A DNA stretch of 39,461 nucleotides from a virus (IMGVR_UViG_3300037507_001355:1-39461); one strand, 5' to 3'; shown: positions 75-39,461, numbered from the stretch's first letter. Numbers and translations are program-made. Notes: generated by a model from the sequence alone, not told the origin.

Positions 75-545
75 ATGACTGCGCGAATCCCGGTTGAAGT
101 CCATGCAATTCACGGAACAAGAGGAACGAAGATGGGCAAAAAGCTGCCTGAGCAACTCAAGCAAAGAATTCCTTTTGCTGAGTGGGCGGAAAATCCTGCT
201 GCGTTTAATGCGTCCAAGTTTGTGCAGGAAACCGCTGATTATTTGTATGAGGTTTATGGGATTGGAAGCGCCCAGGACCGGCACACGCTTTTGATGCTGG
301 CGGATCAGCTCCAGATTTATGTGAACGCCAGACAGGGAATGCTGACCGAGGACTTAGTGATCTACACGAACAATGGCAAGACGGCTGCGCCTAATCCGCA
401 TATAGCGATTGCCAATGCCGCGGTCATTCATGCGATTAAGCTGATGAATGAGTTAGGATTGACACCTAAGTCTAGGTTGGCATCCAACAAGACCGAAAAC
501 AAAAAGATAAACGACTTTTTAAGCGGACCTAAATTCGGTACATGA
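75..545 (+). CDS. terS: Terminase small subunit, P27-like
   Basis: The product has 156 aa. The C-terminal part carries the signature seen in the P27/Terminase_4 family: an N-A-A segment followed by KLMNELGLTPKSRLA at about residues 121-136. The small subunit recognises the packaging site and hands concatemeric DNA to the large subunit in the cytoplasm. The start at 75 is supported by AAGGAG about 7 nt upstream. The next gene, terL, overlaps by 4 nt (ATGA), so the two are translationally coupled. A low-complexity N-terminus (residues 1-25) precedes the family-like region, and Met20 could be an alternative start. The call rests on family resemblance plus the neighbouring large subunit. Confidence 0.85.
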   Translation: MTARIPVEVHAIHGTRGTKMGKKLPEQLKQRIPFAEWAENPAAFNASKFVQETADYLYEVYGIGSAQDRHTLLMLADQLQIYVNARQGMLTEDLVIYTNNGKTAAPNPHIAIANAAVIHAIKLMNELGLTPKSRLASNKTENKKINDFLSGPKFGT

Positions 546-2200
546 AATTAGACGATGGCATTCAATACGCGGTCAAAGTATCCAAAGGTGAGATAGACGC
601 ATGTAGAAACGTCCGTCTCGCCTGCCAGCGGTTTTTGAACCACCTGGAAAACAAAGAATGGGAGTGGGTTTTTGACCCAGGACCCGTCAAGCACTTCTTA
701 GAGTTCACATCGCTTTGCAAGCACGTGAAGGGTCAGTGGGCAAATAAGCCTGTCAGTCTTGAGCCCTTCCAGATTCTTATCATTTGTGCGCTATATGGGT
801 TTAGGCTAAAGCGAGATCGGTCTAAACGCATGGTGCAGGATGTCATTGTTTACATCCCTCGTAAGGCAGGGAAGTCAACGCTGACCGCTCTGATTGCTCT
901 TTACGAGCTTGCTTTTGGCGAAGCTGGCGCTGAGGTCTACACGGTAGCGACTAACAGAGACCAAGCGTCAATCGTTTTCACTACCGCCAAGGGTTTTGTT
1001 GAAACTTTGCCCCGAGAAGTCTCGACCATGTTTGTCCCTGGGAAATTCACGATAGTGAAGAACGGCGACAGCCAATCTATGTTCAAAGCGCTCAGCCGGG
1101 ACACTAAGCGTACGGGTGACGGGCTCAACCCTTCTTGCGCGATTATTGACGAGGCTTCGCAGATCGTAGACAGGAATACGGTTGAGGTCTTGCATTCGGG
1201 CATGGTCGCACGACAGAACCCACTCAGGTTATATATAACCACAGCAAGTTTTACCAGAGACACTAAGTTCTTCGAGGACCTCCAGGTCATGGAGCGCATT
1301 CTTAACCAGGATGTGCCGGATAACCCGAGATGGTTTGGGCTGCTTTATTCTTTGGACGCGGGCGACGATTGGCGAGACCCCGCGGTCTGGCACAAAGCCA
1401 ATCCCATGCACAACATTTCTGTCTCGCACGATGCGATTGCCGCTCGATGCGAAGAGGCCAAGATTAAGCCGGCTGCGCTCAACGAGTTTCTCTGTAAGAC
1501 GCTAAATGTCTATGTGTCTGCCGAAACCGCCTGGGTAGACAGGTCTCACTGGGATGCGTCTGTAGGCTTAACGGACCGACAGCCGGAAGCTGTTTTTATC
1601 GGATTTGACTTGGCTGCGACGCGAGATTTAAACGCAGTCTGTACGCTGAAACGATTTGCAGAAGATGATTACGAGGCCGAATGGAAGTTCTTTTTGCCGG
1701 AGGACGGATTTGAACTCTTGCCGACTCATTACCAAGATATTTTTCGTCAGGCTATAAACTCTGGTCTCTTGCACATTACGGAAGGAAATGTTATGGACGA
1801 CCGTGAGATTTCCGAGTATATTATTGGGCAAGGCCAGAAATACGACGTACGCGAGGTCGGGTACGACGCGTACAATGCAGCCGCACTAGTGGCGCGTTTA
1901 TACGAAGCAGGAATGCCAGTCAAGAAAGTTGGGCAAGGGATGGCGGTGTTAAGTAACCCATCCAAACATGTAGAGAAGCTCATTCTTGGACACAAAATTA
2001 AACACGATGGCAACCAGTTTTTAGGCCACCAATTGGGAAACTGCGAAGTGTTCACAGATGTGCAAGGCAACATCAAGGTAAAAAAGGCCGGAGTGGACAA
2101 ACACGCCAAGGTCGACGGCATTATTGCCCTGATTATTGCGATGCACTGCTCACTTGATAACCCTGCCCCTAACGAATCGTACGGATTCAGGGTGTTTTGA
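542..2200 (+). CDS. terL: Terminase large subunit (ATPase-nuclease)
   Basis: This 552-aa protein is of the Terminase_1 type and pumps DNA into the prohead. The ATPase half has a Walker A-like RKAGKST at 107-113 and a Walker B IIDE at 201-204. The nuclease half shows the expected spaced acidic residues: D356 in GFDLAAT, D442 in YDAYNAA and D525 in KVDGIIAL, consistent with an RNase H-like two-metal site. The length is usual for HK97-type phages. The ATG overlaps the terS stop by 4 nt. The portal gene follows after 8 nt. Nothing is missing or broken. Confidence 0.95.
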   Translation: MKLDDGIQYAVKVSKGEIDACRNVRLACQRFLNHLENKEWEWVFDPGPVKHFLEFTSLCKHVKGQWANKPVSLEPFQILIICALYGFRLKRDRSKRMVQDVIVYIPRKAGKSTLTALIALYELAFGEAGAEVYTVATNRDQASIVFTTAKGFVETLPREVSTMFVPGKFTIVKNGDSQSMFKALSRDTKRTGDGLNPSCAIIDEASQIVDRNTVEVLHSGMVARQNPLRLYITTASFTRDTKFFEDLQVMERILNQDVPDNPRWFGLLYSLDAGDDWRDPAVWHKANPMHNISVSHDAIAARCEEAKIKPAALNEFLCKTLNVYVSAETAWVDRSHWDASVGLTDRQPEAVFIGFDLAATRDLNAVCTLKRFAEDDYEAEWKFFLPEDGFELLPTHYQDIFRQAINSGLLHITEGNVMDDREISEYIIGQGQKYDVREVGYDAYNAAALVARLYEAGMPVKKVGQGMAVLSNPSKHVEKLILGHKIKHDGNQFLGHQLGNCEVFTDVQGNIKVKKAGVDKHAKVDGIIALIIAMHCSLDNPAPNESYGFRVF

Positions 2201-36388: not shown

Positions 36389-36621
36389 GAATCGAAAAGG
36401 CTTTAGAACATCTAGCCAACGAAAAGGACTTCATCTTCCAGGCCGTGTTCAATCAAGATGATCTGCCCTACTCACTCTATTGTTTATTCAACGCACTCAT
36501 GGAGCGTGAAGAACTGGAGTCAATCACAAGGCACATGACTCGCAAAGAGTCGGACCTATTCTTAGACCTAGCCACATACTCATGCCAAGAACGCCCAAGC
36601 AGACAACCTGCCGGGAGTTAG
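36385..36621 (+). CDS. Small helical protein
   Basis: The 78-aa product (MRIEKALEHLANEKDFIFQA, then NALMEREELESITRHMTRKE) is helical and acidic. It overlaps the previous gene by 4 nt and the HNH gene by 40 nt. No family is recognised. It sits just before the packaging-type HNH, so a late regulatory role is possible. Confidence 0.55.
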   Translation: MRIEKALEHLANEKDFIFQAVFNQDDLPYSLYCLFNALMEREELESITRHMTRKESDLFLDLATYSCQERPSRQPAGS

Positions 36622-36965
36622 GCTGCACCAACCCCAAGGTCAACAACTCTACATTTTGCGGCATCCACGGAGGTGCCCTATCTGAAGATCGCAGGTCACT
36701 GAAGAATCTGTACAACACGAAACAGTGGAAGCAATTCAGGCAAATCCAGCTATCCAAGCATCCGATCTGCGCTCGATGCCAAAGCCTGGGGAAAATAACG
36801 CCAGCCCACCACGTTGACCACATATTTCCGCATAAGATGGACAAAGAAAAGTGGATGGGCAACCGCTTCCAATCTTTGTGCCATGAATGCCACTCTGTTA
36901 AAACAAACCTGGAAAAGAAGGGCGAGATCCACGACTATGTGGAGCAAAAGGTTTATACGGAGTAA
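36582..36965 (+). CDS. HNH endonuclease, packaging type
   Basis: The 127-aa product has an N-terminal Cys/His set (C10, C15, C26, H29), then WKQFRQIQLSKHPICARCQ with C63 and C66, HHVDHIFPHK with D79 and H80, and SLCHECHSVKT with C100 and C103. This is the HK97 gp74-like HNH form usually found next to terS, where it joins terminase in cleaving at cos. Here 2.5 kb of other sequence lies between it and terS if the genome is circular. Confidence 0.88.
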   Translation: MPRTPKQTTCRELGCTNPKVNNSTFCGIHGGALSEDRRSLKNLYNTKQWKQFRQIQLSKHPICARCQSLGKITPAHHVDHIFPHKMDKEKWMGNRFQSLCHECHSVKTNLEKKGEIHDYVEQKVYTE

Positions 36966-37281
36966 AAAAATATTTTTTCACGGCCAAAAAAATTTCCGGG
37001 CCTGACTTTCCGCCGGCCCGCCGGAAAAAGTTTGGGACATTTCCCAGAATTTTTTTTCAAAATTTTTTTTTAAGCAGCTGGGATCAGAACTGAAACCGAC
37101 AAACGGTCGATTTTGGGGGATGAAACTGACCAGCGGCAGATTCTGACCGACGAGCGGTCGATCGGCACCGGATCGCGGCACGAACGGCAATGCGGCATGA
37201 TAAGCGCACTTGAGCGGCAGGCAAAGCCGGATCGGCGGACCAGTAGGCGGATTTTGGGCGATAAACGGCATTTCGGCGCAC
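36966..37281. other. Non-coding repeat-rich zone after HNH
   Basis: No gene is seen. It has an A-T palindrome (AAAAAATATTTTTT at about 36968), a GC-rich inverted repeat TTTCCG ... CGGAAA around 37008-37028, two long T-runs near 37049-37070, then an array of short CGAC/GTCG repeats. Strong composition change within 100 bp, position after HNH and dyad symmetry fit a cos or pac site or an origin. None of these can be proven from sequence alone. Confidence 0.55.
37097..37160 (+). repeat. CGAC-N5-GTCG repeats, left cluster
   Basis: CGAC-AAACG-GTCG at 37097-37109 and CGAC-GAGCG-GTCG at 37148-37160 are short inverted repeats with the same 4-5-4 pattern, each followed by AT. More degenerate G-x-CGG-x-GATT forms continue to about 37270. 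Related copies lie at 39223-39413, on the other side of the leftward genes. They could be protein binding iterons. Confidence 0.65.
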
Positions 37282-37452
37282 CTATTCCAAAGGCGGTGGC
37301 TCACTGCTCAGCGCATAGGCTAGAGCCCCCGATTCAGTCTCAAAAAGCGCCACTACGGGTAGCGGATCGCCGTCGATGATCCACTGCGCCACCCATTGAC
37401 CGCGAGCGTTGATATAAAGGCGCACTGCGCCGCAATCCCTTTTGATCAGCAT
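37282..37452 (-). CDS. 56-aa hypothetical protein
   Basis: Read leftward from ATG 37452, the product is MLIKRDCGAVRLYINARGQW then VAQWIIDGDPLPVVALF and ends ALSSEPPPLE. It has beta-strand character, with a small domain-like hydrophobic core. AGGGG lies 6 nt upstream. A longer frame to 37515 lacks such a site. It lies downstream of the UUCG terminator, so it needs its own promoter or read-through. Function unknown. Confidence 0.55.
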   Translation of the reverse strand: MLIKRDCGAVRLYINARGQWVAQWIIDGDPLPVVALFETESGALAYALSSEPPPLE

Positions 37453-37540
37453 GAAAACCCCTATAAAAGCCCGAAGGCATAACCGGCCAAGACGGCCACC
37501 AAAAAGCTCAGGCAATCCCTAAGCGCTTTAGTGGGCGCAA

Positions 37541-37572
37541 GGCAAGCGCAAGCCAGCGCAGGCAAGCGCAAG
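37541..37572 (+). repeat. Direct repeat GGCAAGCGCAAG, 20-bp period
   Basis: GGCAAGCGCAAG occurs at 37541-37552 and 37561-37572, with CCAGCGCA between. A shorter GGCAAGCGC copy follows near 37707. The phase of 20 bp, near two helical turns, would fit a binding array beside the GTAACC sites. Confidence 0.6.
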
Positions 37573-37589
37573 ACGAACGCATGGAACCC

Positions 37590-37625
37590 GTAACCCTAGG
37601 TTACGTATTGGTAACCCTGACTTAC
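37590..37625. promoter_or_regulatory. GTAACC operator-like pair
   Basis: GTAACCCTAGGTTAC at 37590-37604 is an inverted repeat (GTAACC-CTA-GGTTAC). A second, less symmetric copy GTAACCCTGACTTAC lies at 37611-37625, 21 bp apart, so on the same helix face. Two such dyads between leftward genes suggest binding of a dimeric regulator. No regulator gene is identified. Confidence 0.6.
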
Positions 37626-37631
37626 AGGCAC

Positions 37632-37652
37632 AAAAAAAGCCCCGAAGGGCTT
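37632..37652 (-). terminator. UUCG intrinsic terminator of the 241-aa gene
   Basis: Read leftward, AAGCCC-TTCG-GGGCTT is followed by five more T (seven T in all). The UUCG tetraloop and T-run make a strong intrinsic terminator, about 90 nt after the 241-aa gene's stop. It should separate that gene from the 56-aa gene further left. Confidence 0.88.
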
Positions 37653-37743
37653 CTGCTAAAGCTTAATTTTCATAGCAAAACCTCATAGACTGAAAAAAAT
37701 GGCGCAGGCAAGCGCCACACCAAAAACAAAAGCCACAAGCCAG

Positions 37744-38469
37744 TCAGTTAACATGATTGGCAGCCTTGCCATGCGCGACAATCGCGATTGATACGCTTTC
37801 GGGCTTTAGTGCGCCGTCACATGCGCCACAATCAACGCATTGGCGACGATTGCCACCCTCAGGGCTTGCTGGGCACGAAATCTCATGTTTAAGCGCTGGC
37901 GCTTGCATGACCGGGATAACCCGAAATGTGCGCCAGCCCATACTCCGGGCTAAATCGCGATCTATAGCACTATCAGCGCTTGCCATGCACAATTCGCGCA
38001 TCGGCTGAGCCCAAGCTTCGCGCCATTGGTGACTGTAACCGGTCCAACCAAGAGAAAATTGAAGGATCGCAAGCCATGCGTCGATATCAATCATTGCCGG
38101 ATCACCATAAGCGCCCAAGCGCACCATGCGGCCACGCAAAAGCTCAGCGCCTAAGCTTGGGTTATGCGAATAATCAGGGTATGACCCGCGGGTGAAAGCT
38201 TTATAAACGGCGCTCACTGATTTTGAGACATCAACGTAGCATGTGCGCTTAGTCGATGCGCTGCCCCTATGTACGCAATCCCCACAAATTGATGCATCGT
38301 CGGCGCTTTTAATTGCATCCATTGGATGCACATCGGCGCGCAATATATAGGTTTGAACCATGTCACCGGTTTTTATATTTTTGCTTTTTAGGACCGCGAT
38401 ACCGACAATTGGTGCGCCGTCTACTGGTGAAAAACCCCGATAAAAAATAAAGCCCCTCGGTTTTGCCAT
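37744..38469 (-). CDS. Cysteine-rich conserved phage protein
   Basis: The 241-aa product has ICGDCVHRG (C62, C65) with C77 in RTCYVD, then RLGAYGDPAMIDIDAWLAI, WTGYSHQWREAW, ELCMASADSA with C161, GWRTFRVIPV, and a C-terminal CPASPEGG with C199 and CVDCGAC (C211, C214, C217). The order is typical of a family widespread in phages without a known role. The Cys sets suggest zinc or iron-sulphur binding. A TIM-barrel-like fold is possible. ACGGAG precedes its ATG. It is alone on its transcript between a hairpin and a terminator. Confidence 0.75.
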   Translation of the reverse strand: MAKPRGFIFYRGFSPVDGAPIVGIAVLKSKNIKTGDMVQTYILRADVHPMDAIKSADDASICGDCVHRGSASTKRTCYVDVSKSVSAVYKAFTRGSYPDYSHNPSLGAELLRGRMVRLGAYGDPAMIDIDAWLAILQFSLGWTGYSHQWREAWAQPMRELCMASADSAIDRDLARSMGWRTFRVIPVMQAPALKHEISCPASPEGGNRRQCVDCGACDGALKPESVSIAIVAHGKAANHVN

Positions 38470-38511
38470 TTGAATCTCCGTTATTTACTGAATGATGCGA
38501 ATCACATCCCG

Positions 38512-38531
38512 GAGCCCAAAAAAATGGGCTC
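38512..38531 (-). other. Hairpin between leftward genes
   Basis: GAGCCCA and TGGGCTC form a 7-bp stem around six A (six T on the leftward transcript). It lies 10 nt after the stop of the 92-aa gene and about 40 nt before the 241-aa gene start. It has no following T-run, so it may be a weak terminator or a stabilising 3' end. Confidence 0.55.
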
Positions 38532-38541
38532 AAGGATAAGA

Positions 38542-38820
38542 TCAGCCGTTATGCGAAAGCTCATTTTTTGCACTGTAAAGGGTCCATTTAGCATGGAGCT
38601 TTTTATGCATTGCAATCGCCCAGTTTTCGCCGAAAAACTCGACGTTAGTGATAAATAGGATTCGAGCCCATAAATAGCGATTAATCCCGGTCACCTCGTA
38701 ATTGTACGAATAAGGGTTAACGCAATTGACCAGTTTCTTGTACTGAAGGCGAGAAAGCGCGCAGTCTTCAGCCACGACTAACCGGATTGTCGATTCAGCG
38801 CCAGTGATAGTGATAATCAT
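38542..38820 (-). CDS. 92-aa paralogue of the neighbouring 97-aa protein
   Basis: The product has an N-terminal beta part, then LSRLQYKKLVNCVNP and YEVTGINRYLWARILF, matching LSAGQYKRLKRHLCG and HDVSGIDPKRWGQILF of the gene before it. So the two are tandem duplicates. A positively charged end follows. ATG overlaps the previous stop (TAATG), so they are coupled. Function unknown. Confidence 0.65.
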   Translation of the reverse strand: MIITITGAESTIRLVVAEDCALSRLQYKKLVNCVNPYSYNYEVTGINRYLWARILFITNVEFFGENWAIAMHKKLHAKWTLYSAKNELSHNG

Positions 38821-39113
38821 TACAGTTTCCCCACATTGGCAAGCGCTTCGGCGCGATAAAAAGACTTGTGTGCCATTGCCATGCTGTTGAAAAGTATCTG
38901 GCCCCAGCGCTTAGGATCAATGCCCGATACATCATGCTTGAGTGTTTCGCACTGGCACTCTGCAACGCCACACAAATGCCTTTTCAGGCGCTTATATTGC
39001 CCAGCGCTTAGGCTTTCATCACCGCCTTTGATGCGAAGGCGCATCGGTCCGACGTTATGAAAGCCACCCGAAACTGTAACCAGTGCATCTAACTGATATT
39101 CGATTATTGCCAT
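38820..39113 (-). CDS. 97-aa protein of unknown function
   Basis: The product begins MAIIEYQLDALVTVSGGF, then MRLRIKGGDESLSAGQYKRL and HDVSGIDPKRWGQILFNSMA. Start 39113 is chosen for the ACGGAGAATCAC leader, instead of a far upstream ATG at 39326 that would cover a terminator and repeats. It is the first gene of the leftward unit. It shares the Q-Y-K-x-L ... G-I-x-x-x-x-W-x-x-I-L-F pattern with the next gene. Confidence 0.65.
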   Translation of the reverse strand: MAIIEYQLDALVTVSGGFHNVGPMRLRIKGGDESLSAGQYKRLKRHLCGVAECQCETLKHDVSGIDPKRWGQILFNSMAMAHKSFYRAEALANVGKL

Positions 39114-39182
39114 GTGATTCTCCGTAAAAAAACTAGTCGATTGATTACAACGCGCCAATCCTAACCACAAAAACCAGCCACC

Positions 39183-39206
39183 AAGCGCCACATCGGCGCT
39201 TTTTTT
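39183..39206 (+). terminator. Plus-strand intrinsic terminator
   Basis: AGCGCC (39184-39189), loop ACATC and GGCGCT (39195-39200) are followed by T to 39206 (seven T in total). The plus-strand form is clear. The nearest upstream plus-strand gene is the HNH gene, which ends at 36965. It may stop read-through before terS, or end a small unknown RNA. Confidence 0.85.
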
Positions 39207-39222
39207 ACGCCTGCCCGATGGC

Positions 39223-39413
39223 CGGTCGATTTCAGGCCCACAAACGGTAATGCACTGCCGCTCAAGCCGATCCAAGGCCCACCAAAAGCGCTTGATCGAG
39301 CGTAAACCATTGATTTCAAACGACAAACCCCGATTTCCGTTATAACCTGCGACAGACGGTCGATTTCAGGGTTTAAAAGGGATCGGCGGTCGATTGCGGC
39401 CGACAGACGGCGA
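39223..39413 (+). repeat. CGGTCGATTTCAGG repeats, right cluster
   Basis: CGGTCGATTTCAGG is identical at 39223-39236 and 39357-39370. CGAC-AGACG-GTCG lies at 39350-39362, and imperfect copies are at 39321 (CGACAAACCCCGATTT), 39386 (GGCGGTCGATTGCGG) and 39401 (CGACAGACGGCGA). They share the pattern of the left cluster near 37100-37160, in the same orientation. Binding iterons or recombination relics are both possible. Confidence 0.65.
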
Positions 39414-39461
39414 AAATGACTTAAAAAATATAGCGGATACGGAAGGGCAAGCGCGCGCTCG

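Follow-up and report, generated by a model that had tools for sequence, protein, structure and literature searches.

A gene block at the right end of an HK97-type cos-phage genome, bordered by direct-repeat arrays resembling LytTR/AlgR sites

The locus considered here raises the question of why related short repeats flank the leftward genes near the right terminus of a phage genome. The window, that is, the whole stretch of 39,461 nucleotides that was analysed, is a single IMG/VR virus record. It has genes for terminase, tail proteins and an endolysin, and a recombination set whose SSB, RecE-like and Erf-like proteins are encoded among leftward genes at 28.1-30.7 kb. Methylophilaceae phage P19250A is the sole isolate whose large terminase exceeds 60% identity to that of the window, at 67%. 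A sequence-only reading had proposed that the block between the repeats is an accessory unit with its own control, perhaps acquired, or an origin of replication with iterons on both sides.

Termini, genes and repeats of the right end

Contig L018 and others read across the junction of the window's two ends. Among 28 relatives beginning near this point, 24 start at the base corresponding to window position 1, and the right-end contigs of relatives stop 10 nt short of it. Because library end repair removes 3' overhangs, the most likely reading of this gap is a 3' cohesive end of 10 nt, as known from HK97, the polarity being deduced from the absence of the 10-nt stretch from both contig ends. The window is a complete HK97-type cos-phage genome, and the location of cos places the leftward block at its true right terminus (Table 1). 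The cos and packaging region resembles that of HK97 in its HNH gene, its TerS-TerL order and the 10-nt stretch missing from both contig ends, but differs in the putative accessory cassette and repeat arrays between the HNH gene and cos; cassette and cos are all that separates the HNH gene from the terminase genes.

Table 1. Coordinates of features at the genome termini, counted from the first base of the window
Feature	Position	Strand	Evidence or remark
TerS and TerL genes	75..2200	+	phrog_83 / PF05119 and phrog_9 / PF03354 + PF20441; directly right of cos
HNH endonuclease gene	36582..36965	+	phrog_144 (E = 1.3e-23), PF01844; directly left of left array
A/T-tract and hairpin region, probable terminator region	36966..37096		between the convergent HNH gene and block
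Terminator-like stems	37031-37048; 37046-37033	+; -	within the A/T-tract region
Left array	37097..37280	+	dyad search, unit count, spacing grid
Left-array units	37098 GACAAACGG; 37128 GACCAGCGG; 37149 GACGAGCGG; 37179 CACGAACGG; 37260 GATAAACGG	+	weak unit near 37209
p56, 56-aa protein	37282..37452	-	no Pfam or PHROG match
Terminator-like hairpin, leftward	37699..37722	-	after the DUF7227-like gene
DUF7227-like protein, 241 aa	37744..38469	-	phrog_2554, function unassigned in PHROG; conserved Cys residues
p92, 92-aa protein	38542..38820	-	no known family in Pfam/PHROG scans
p97, 97-aa protein	38820..39113	-	first gene of leftward block; no known family (Pfam/PHROG)
Terminator-like hairpin, rightward	39183..39201	+	AAGCGCCACATCGGCGCTT-TTTTT
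Right array	39211..39413	+	14-mer repeat, unit count, spacing grid
Right-array units	39217 GATGGCCGG; 39239 CACAAACGG; 39351 GACAGACGG; 39381 GATCGGCGG; 39402 GACAGACGG	+
Candidate -10 hexamer of a leftward promoter, TATAAC	39339..39344	-	by eye; 6 nt beyond the unit at 39351
10-nt cohesive end of cos	39448..39457		CAAGCGCGCG; recurrent contig ends in relatives
Repeat of the window's first 4 nt (CTCG)	39458..39461		window position 1 is the left end of the linear genome

Every leftward gene at the right end (37282-39113) falls between the two repeat clusters, as had been claimed. The 241-aa protein is a strong member of phrog_2554 (E = 8.7e-74, 250 bits), but its match to PF23872 (DUF7227) stays under the Pfam cut-off of 27 (E = 2e-4, 21.4 bits); its predicted structure was unusable (pLDDT 34), and a search for its homologues in bacterial genomes returned none. 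The string TCCGTTATAACYTGCGACA, which holds the candidate TATAAC, is intact in L090 and L007 and has one change in L018; a sigma-70 promoter scan found no excess. An Rfam search for an RNA element gave no match.

Exact matches to CGAC-N5-GTCG lie at 37097-37109 and 37148-37160 on the left and at 39350-39362 on the right (three in the window against 0.35 expected; at least three in 0 of 100 shuffles), with none in the remaining 37 kb, and the 14-mer CGGTCGATTTCAGG stands at the right in two identical copies starting at 39223 and 39357; both had been described correctly from the sequence. The true repeated unit is nevertheless an asymmetric 9-mer near GACGAACGG, often followed by TCGATTT, and the dyad is its by-product, arising where a unit that starts with CGAC precedes TCG. 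With up to two mismatches allowed, the two clusters together hold nine such units against 1.83 expected from first-order Markov shuffles of the same regions (P = 0.0005), all on the + strand and thus in identical orientation on both flanks of the leftward genes. The spacing grid of the left array, 30/21/30/30/51, is identical in the window, L018 and L103, and that of the right array, 22/112/30/21, is the same in the window and L018; L090 and L106 have arrays related to the window's right array, and L018 contains two exact GACGAACGG units. Site-by-site conservation among the closest relatives gives no support for selection on the units, which are conserved at 85% versus 84% for the spacers. The left array sits between convergent genes, with no promoter there, and adjoins A/T tracts and terminator-like stems; L018 keeps this A/T-tract and hairpin region, and L090 and L103 keep its outline.

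Variation of the block among relatives

Block and repeats were not found to be a constant part of all relatives with the composition of the rest. The p56-bearing cassette together with arrays occurs in eight other contigs, with an array on both sides wherever the contig reaches; the carriers are the window, L018/L104, L103 and L105-L110, and their leftward genes lie between the arrays. About 25 relatives have neither block nor arrays, and only some 60 bases separate their HNH gene from cos. L026/L111, counted as one contig, has a single compact array and no block genes. Gene content differs among blocks: p56 was found in every block-bearing relative (8 loci, 70-91% identity), the window adds the DUF7227-like gene, p92 and p97, L018 has counterparts of p92 (53% identical) and p97 (95%) and an extra 89-aa gene, and L090/L093 have no DUF7227 but a beta-clamp-like gene. 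That cassette (L090:3749-4423, and L093) encodes a short beta-clamp-like protein (PF02767).

In a TerS tree the window and L018 group with the block-less L026, L034 and L023 at 99/100 support, and the remaining block carriers are placed elsewhere. This discordance with the distribution of the block indicates that cassette and terminase have different histories. The window's DUF7227-like protein is 87-89% identical to homologues in the P22-portal podophages L005/L006. Judged by these sequence comparisons, the block looks like an exchangeable cassette, which agrees in part with the proposal that it is accessory and perhaps acquired; the control of its own that had also been proposed would follow from the repeats.

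The suggestion that the block is rich in AGCGC and GGCGC, unlike the rest, holds for the words themselves. The block has 36 copies of AGCGC, where the rest of the genome would predict 6.3, and the two words together reach 24.2 per kb versus 4.6 per kb elsewhere. By 4-mer distance, stretches starting at 16.7-18.5 kb, which include the tail-fibre gene, deviate more from the genome than the block does. This richness is common to L018's block and the DUF7227-like gene of L005 (30 per kb) and absent from the blocks of L090 (7.0 per kb) and L106 (3.7 per kb); it marks the source of the window-lineage version, not the cassette in general.

Several related arrangements were observed. The array at L026:5339-5420, which has no cassette and no A/T tract to its left, resembles the end of the left array fused to the end of the right array, and may be either ancestor or deletion. 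P22-portal podophages have a repeat array of another sequence, with a leftward DUF7227-like gene on one side and the terminase genes on the other (L005:5194-5776, L006:5133-5782, L008:2451-2766); its units are TTGGCAA, partly at 36-bp steps, and L008 has tandem GCGGTCGA. The T7-like phages S2B and jiawei likewise have a homologous phrog_2554/DUF7227-like gene near the genome end, read away from the end, but identity is about 47%, these phages have their own RNA polymerase, and S2B has terminal repeats. A GP88-like neighbour in L304 was considered as a further homologue of the DUF7227-like protein and is not a clear one (E = 0.11).

Likeness to AlgR sites and recurrence in unrelated genomes

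The AlgR core is CCGTTCGTC, and the site algD-RB3 is CCGTTTGTC (PMC4064291). The 9-mer GACGAACGG is the reverse complement of this core, the unit at 37098 is the exact reverse complement of algD-RB3, and the window's units differ from the core by 1-3 bases. Sites of the LytTR family are 9-bp repeats in pairs 10-13 bp apart (PMC11347149, PMC4847170), so that steps of 19-22 bp are expected; 21- and 22-bp steps occur in both arrays, interspersed with 30, 51 and 112 bp, and a strict pair test left only two pairs in the window, at 21-22 bp. The arrays share with the sites of AlgR (Pseudomonas), CoxC, YpdB and AgrA a 9-bp core and direct repetition; for several pairs the 21-22 bp spacing would fit as well. 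They differ in that the units are degenerate and arrayed at 21- and 30-bp steps, and in that the arrays are phage-borne and flank a gene cassette, with regulator binding putative. Sequence and geometry suggest sites of LytTR/AlgR type. A LytTR domain is encoded neither by the window nor by 16 related or array-bearing phage records, which makes a host regulator the simplest putative binder.

The extended unit was also sought in public genomes regardless of their genes. Partner units were enriched at 21 bp: 9 of the 64 bacterial hits and 8 of the 56 viral hits had one there, the background means per offset being 0.32 and 0.13, respectively; a looser motif scan of viral contigs, whose hits were mostly chance, was used solely through this partner test. 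A strict pair pattern was found in ten stretches of IMG/VR. In Lachnospiraceae, 21-bp unit pairs stand directly before LytTR response-regulator or GHKL kinase genes. Stenotrophomonas phage Sonora (MZ326860) has four perfect CCGTTCGTC-N12-CCGTTCGTC pairs, at 50375, 50875, 52962 and 58871, each shortly upstream of promoter-like sequence (TTTACT, with TATACT or something close to it) that precedes small genes of early type; such a perfect pair was seen in no other of 50,697 phage records. As in the window, the unit of Sonora lies upstream of genes and reads as CCGTTCGTC (CCGT..GTC) in the direction of transcription, but its pairs are perfect tandems near promoter-like sequences and border no cassette. 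The Lachnospiraceae units read opposite to those of Sonora relative to the promoter, and orientation by itself is therefore no guide.

No unit pairs were seen up to about 2.5 kb from the LytTR genes of Proteobacteria and Actinomycetospora. Burkholderiales chromosomes seldom contain the long element, which occurs in 6 of 399 genomes versus 2 for a reversed control, and an over-strict pattern retrieved nothing from 300 Burkholderiales genomes, even from one holding a variant. An AbiE toxin-antitoxin operator, considered because of an AbiEii-like gene on Pseudomonas plasmid p76, was dismissed, as the other motif loci inspected gave LytTR/GHKL genes or no common family. In Actinomycetospora (L174, L178, L181, L184, L193, L201, L211, L212, L233) the unit is conserved genus-wide, several species have additional units some 21 and 52 bp further along, and the unit of L178 lies upstream of a gene that by eye resembles mycothione reductase.

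What the arrays may do

The reading given roughly even weight, which builds on the cos position, the co-occurrence of cassette and arrays, the repeat geometry, the match to published AlgR sites and the recurrence of the unit in unrelated phages, is that an exchangeable cassette of accessory genes occupies the right terminus of this HK97-type cos phage, with direct-repeat arrays of LytTR/AlgR type as its borders. By analogy with lambda-type phages the right end would enter the cell first, so that the leftward genes would be among the first expressed. A host LytTR/AlgR-like response regulator would then bind the arrays and set expression of the cassette soon after entry. The right array, placed upstream of the leftward genes and oriented as at the Sonora promoters, would serve this control, with the by-eye TATAAC at 39344-39339 (-) as the proposed leftward promoter, and the left array would be the other border of the cassette and possible homology for its exchange. 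The left array is the weak point of this mechanism, since it lies between convergent genes and not at a promoter.

Control by a phage-encoded regulator without a LytTR domain, for which the arrays would be operators governing the cassette and perhaps the terminase operon, is unlikely, even though the right array lies between divergent units, its geometry is kept within the family and many small ORFs here belong to no known family. The unit recurs in unrelated phages in which no common regulator was seen, and it matches published host AlgR sites; moreover, the close block-less relatives L034 and L023 also have no arrays, and there is no promoter at the left array for a regulator to act on. That the arrays are mainly border homologies, direct repeats through which the cassette is exchanged or lost by recombination with no regulator involved, is judged quite unlikely. 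Arrays are seen only with the cassette or as the single compact array of L026, the two arrays have a 55-nt stretch in common at 73% identity, and the phage encodes Erf-like and RecE-like recombination proteins at 28.1-30.7 kb; yet border homology leaves the 21-bp pairing, the AlgR match and the recurrence at promoters in unrelated genomes unexplained, and the missing A/T tract left of the L026 array is not what a clean deletion between two arrays would leave.

The origin with iterons on both sides fared poorly, with no positive evidence for it, and is highly improbable. Direct repeats do adjoin the A/T tracts at 36966-37090, and the L090 cassette has its clamp-like gene, but cassette and arrays are missing from many relatives, no initiator was recognised among the proteins scanned, and elsewhere the unit stands at promoters. 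The change in GC skew, which tracks gene strand, was rejected as origin evidence. Repeats of cosB type, recognised by terminase beside cos, are scarcely credible: about 34 bp lie between the end of the right array and the cohesive end, but arrays are absent from L034 and L023, whose TerS is 88% identical, and present in the L090 group, whose TerS is 66% identical. In HK97, TerS recognises just one 15-bp site, at +15 to +29 downstream of the cut (PMC11331095), whereas the window phage has arrays beside cos, and the side of the cut corresponding to the HK97 site is conserved here with or without arrays. Terminase repeats were rejected, as the presence of arrays does not track TerS.

For the exchangeable, array-bordered cassette, a wider and more tentative extension is conceivable, though doubtful, namely that unrelated phages have independently put operons of early or accessory genes under the control of a conserved host response regulator of LytTR/AlgR type, cassette and arrays in this lineage travelling together so that expression would follow the envelope or quorum state of the host. 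If the arrays do bind such a regulator, phages would tap a widespread bacterial signalling family at infection, and the cassette would be a slot in which new early genes are findable by position. The question can already be addressed in Sonora, whose host is in culture and whose four perfect sites stand at promoter-like sequences. Searching the slot between the HNH gene and cos is also a simple way to find uncharacterised phage genes such as the DUF7227-like, p56 and clamp-like genes. On the other side of cos, a gene that by eye resembles a ParB-domain DNA methyltransferase lies between cos and TerS in another group of relatives, L027, L029, L043, L077 and others; these have it instead of a cassette left of cos, so that both flanks of cos look like cargo slots.
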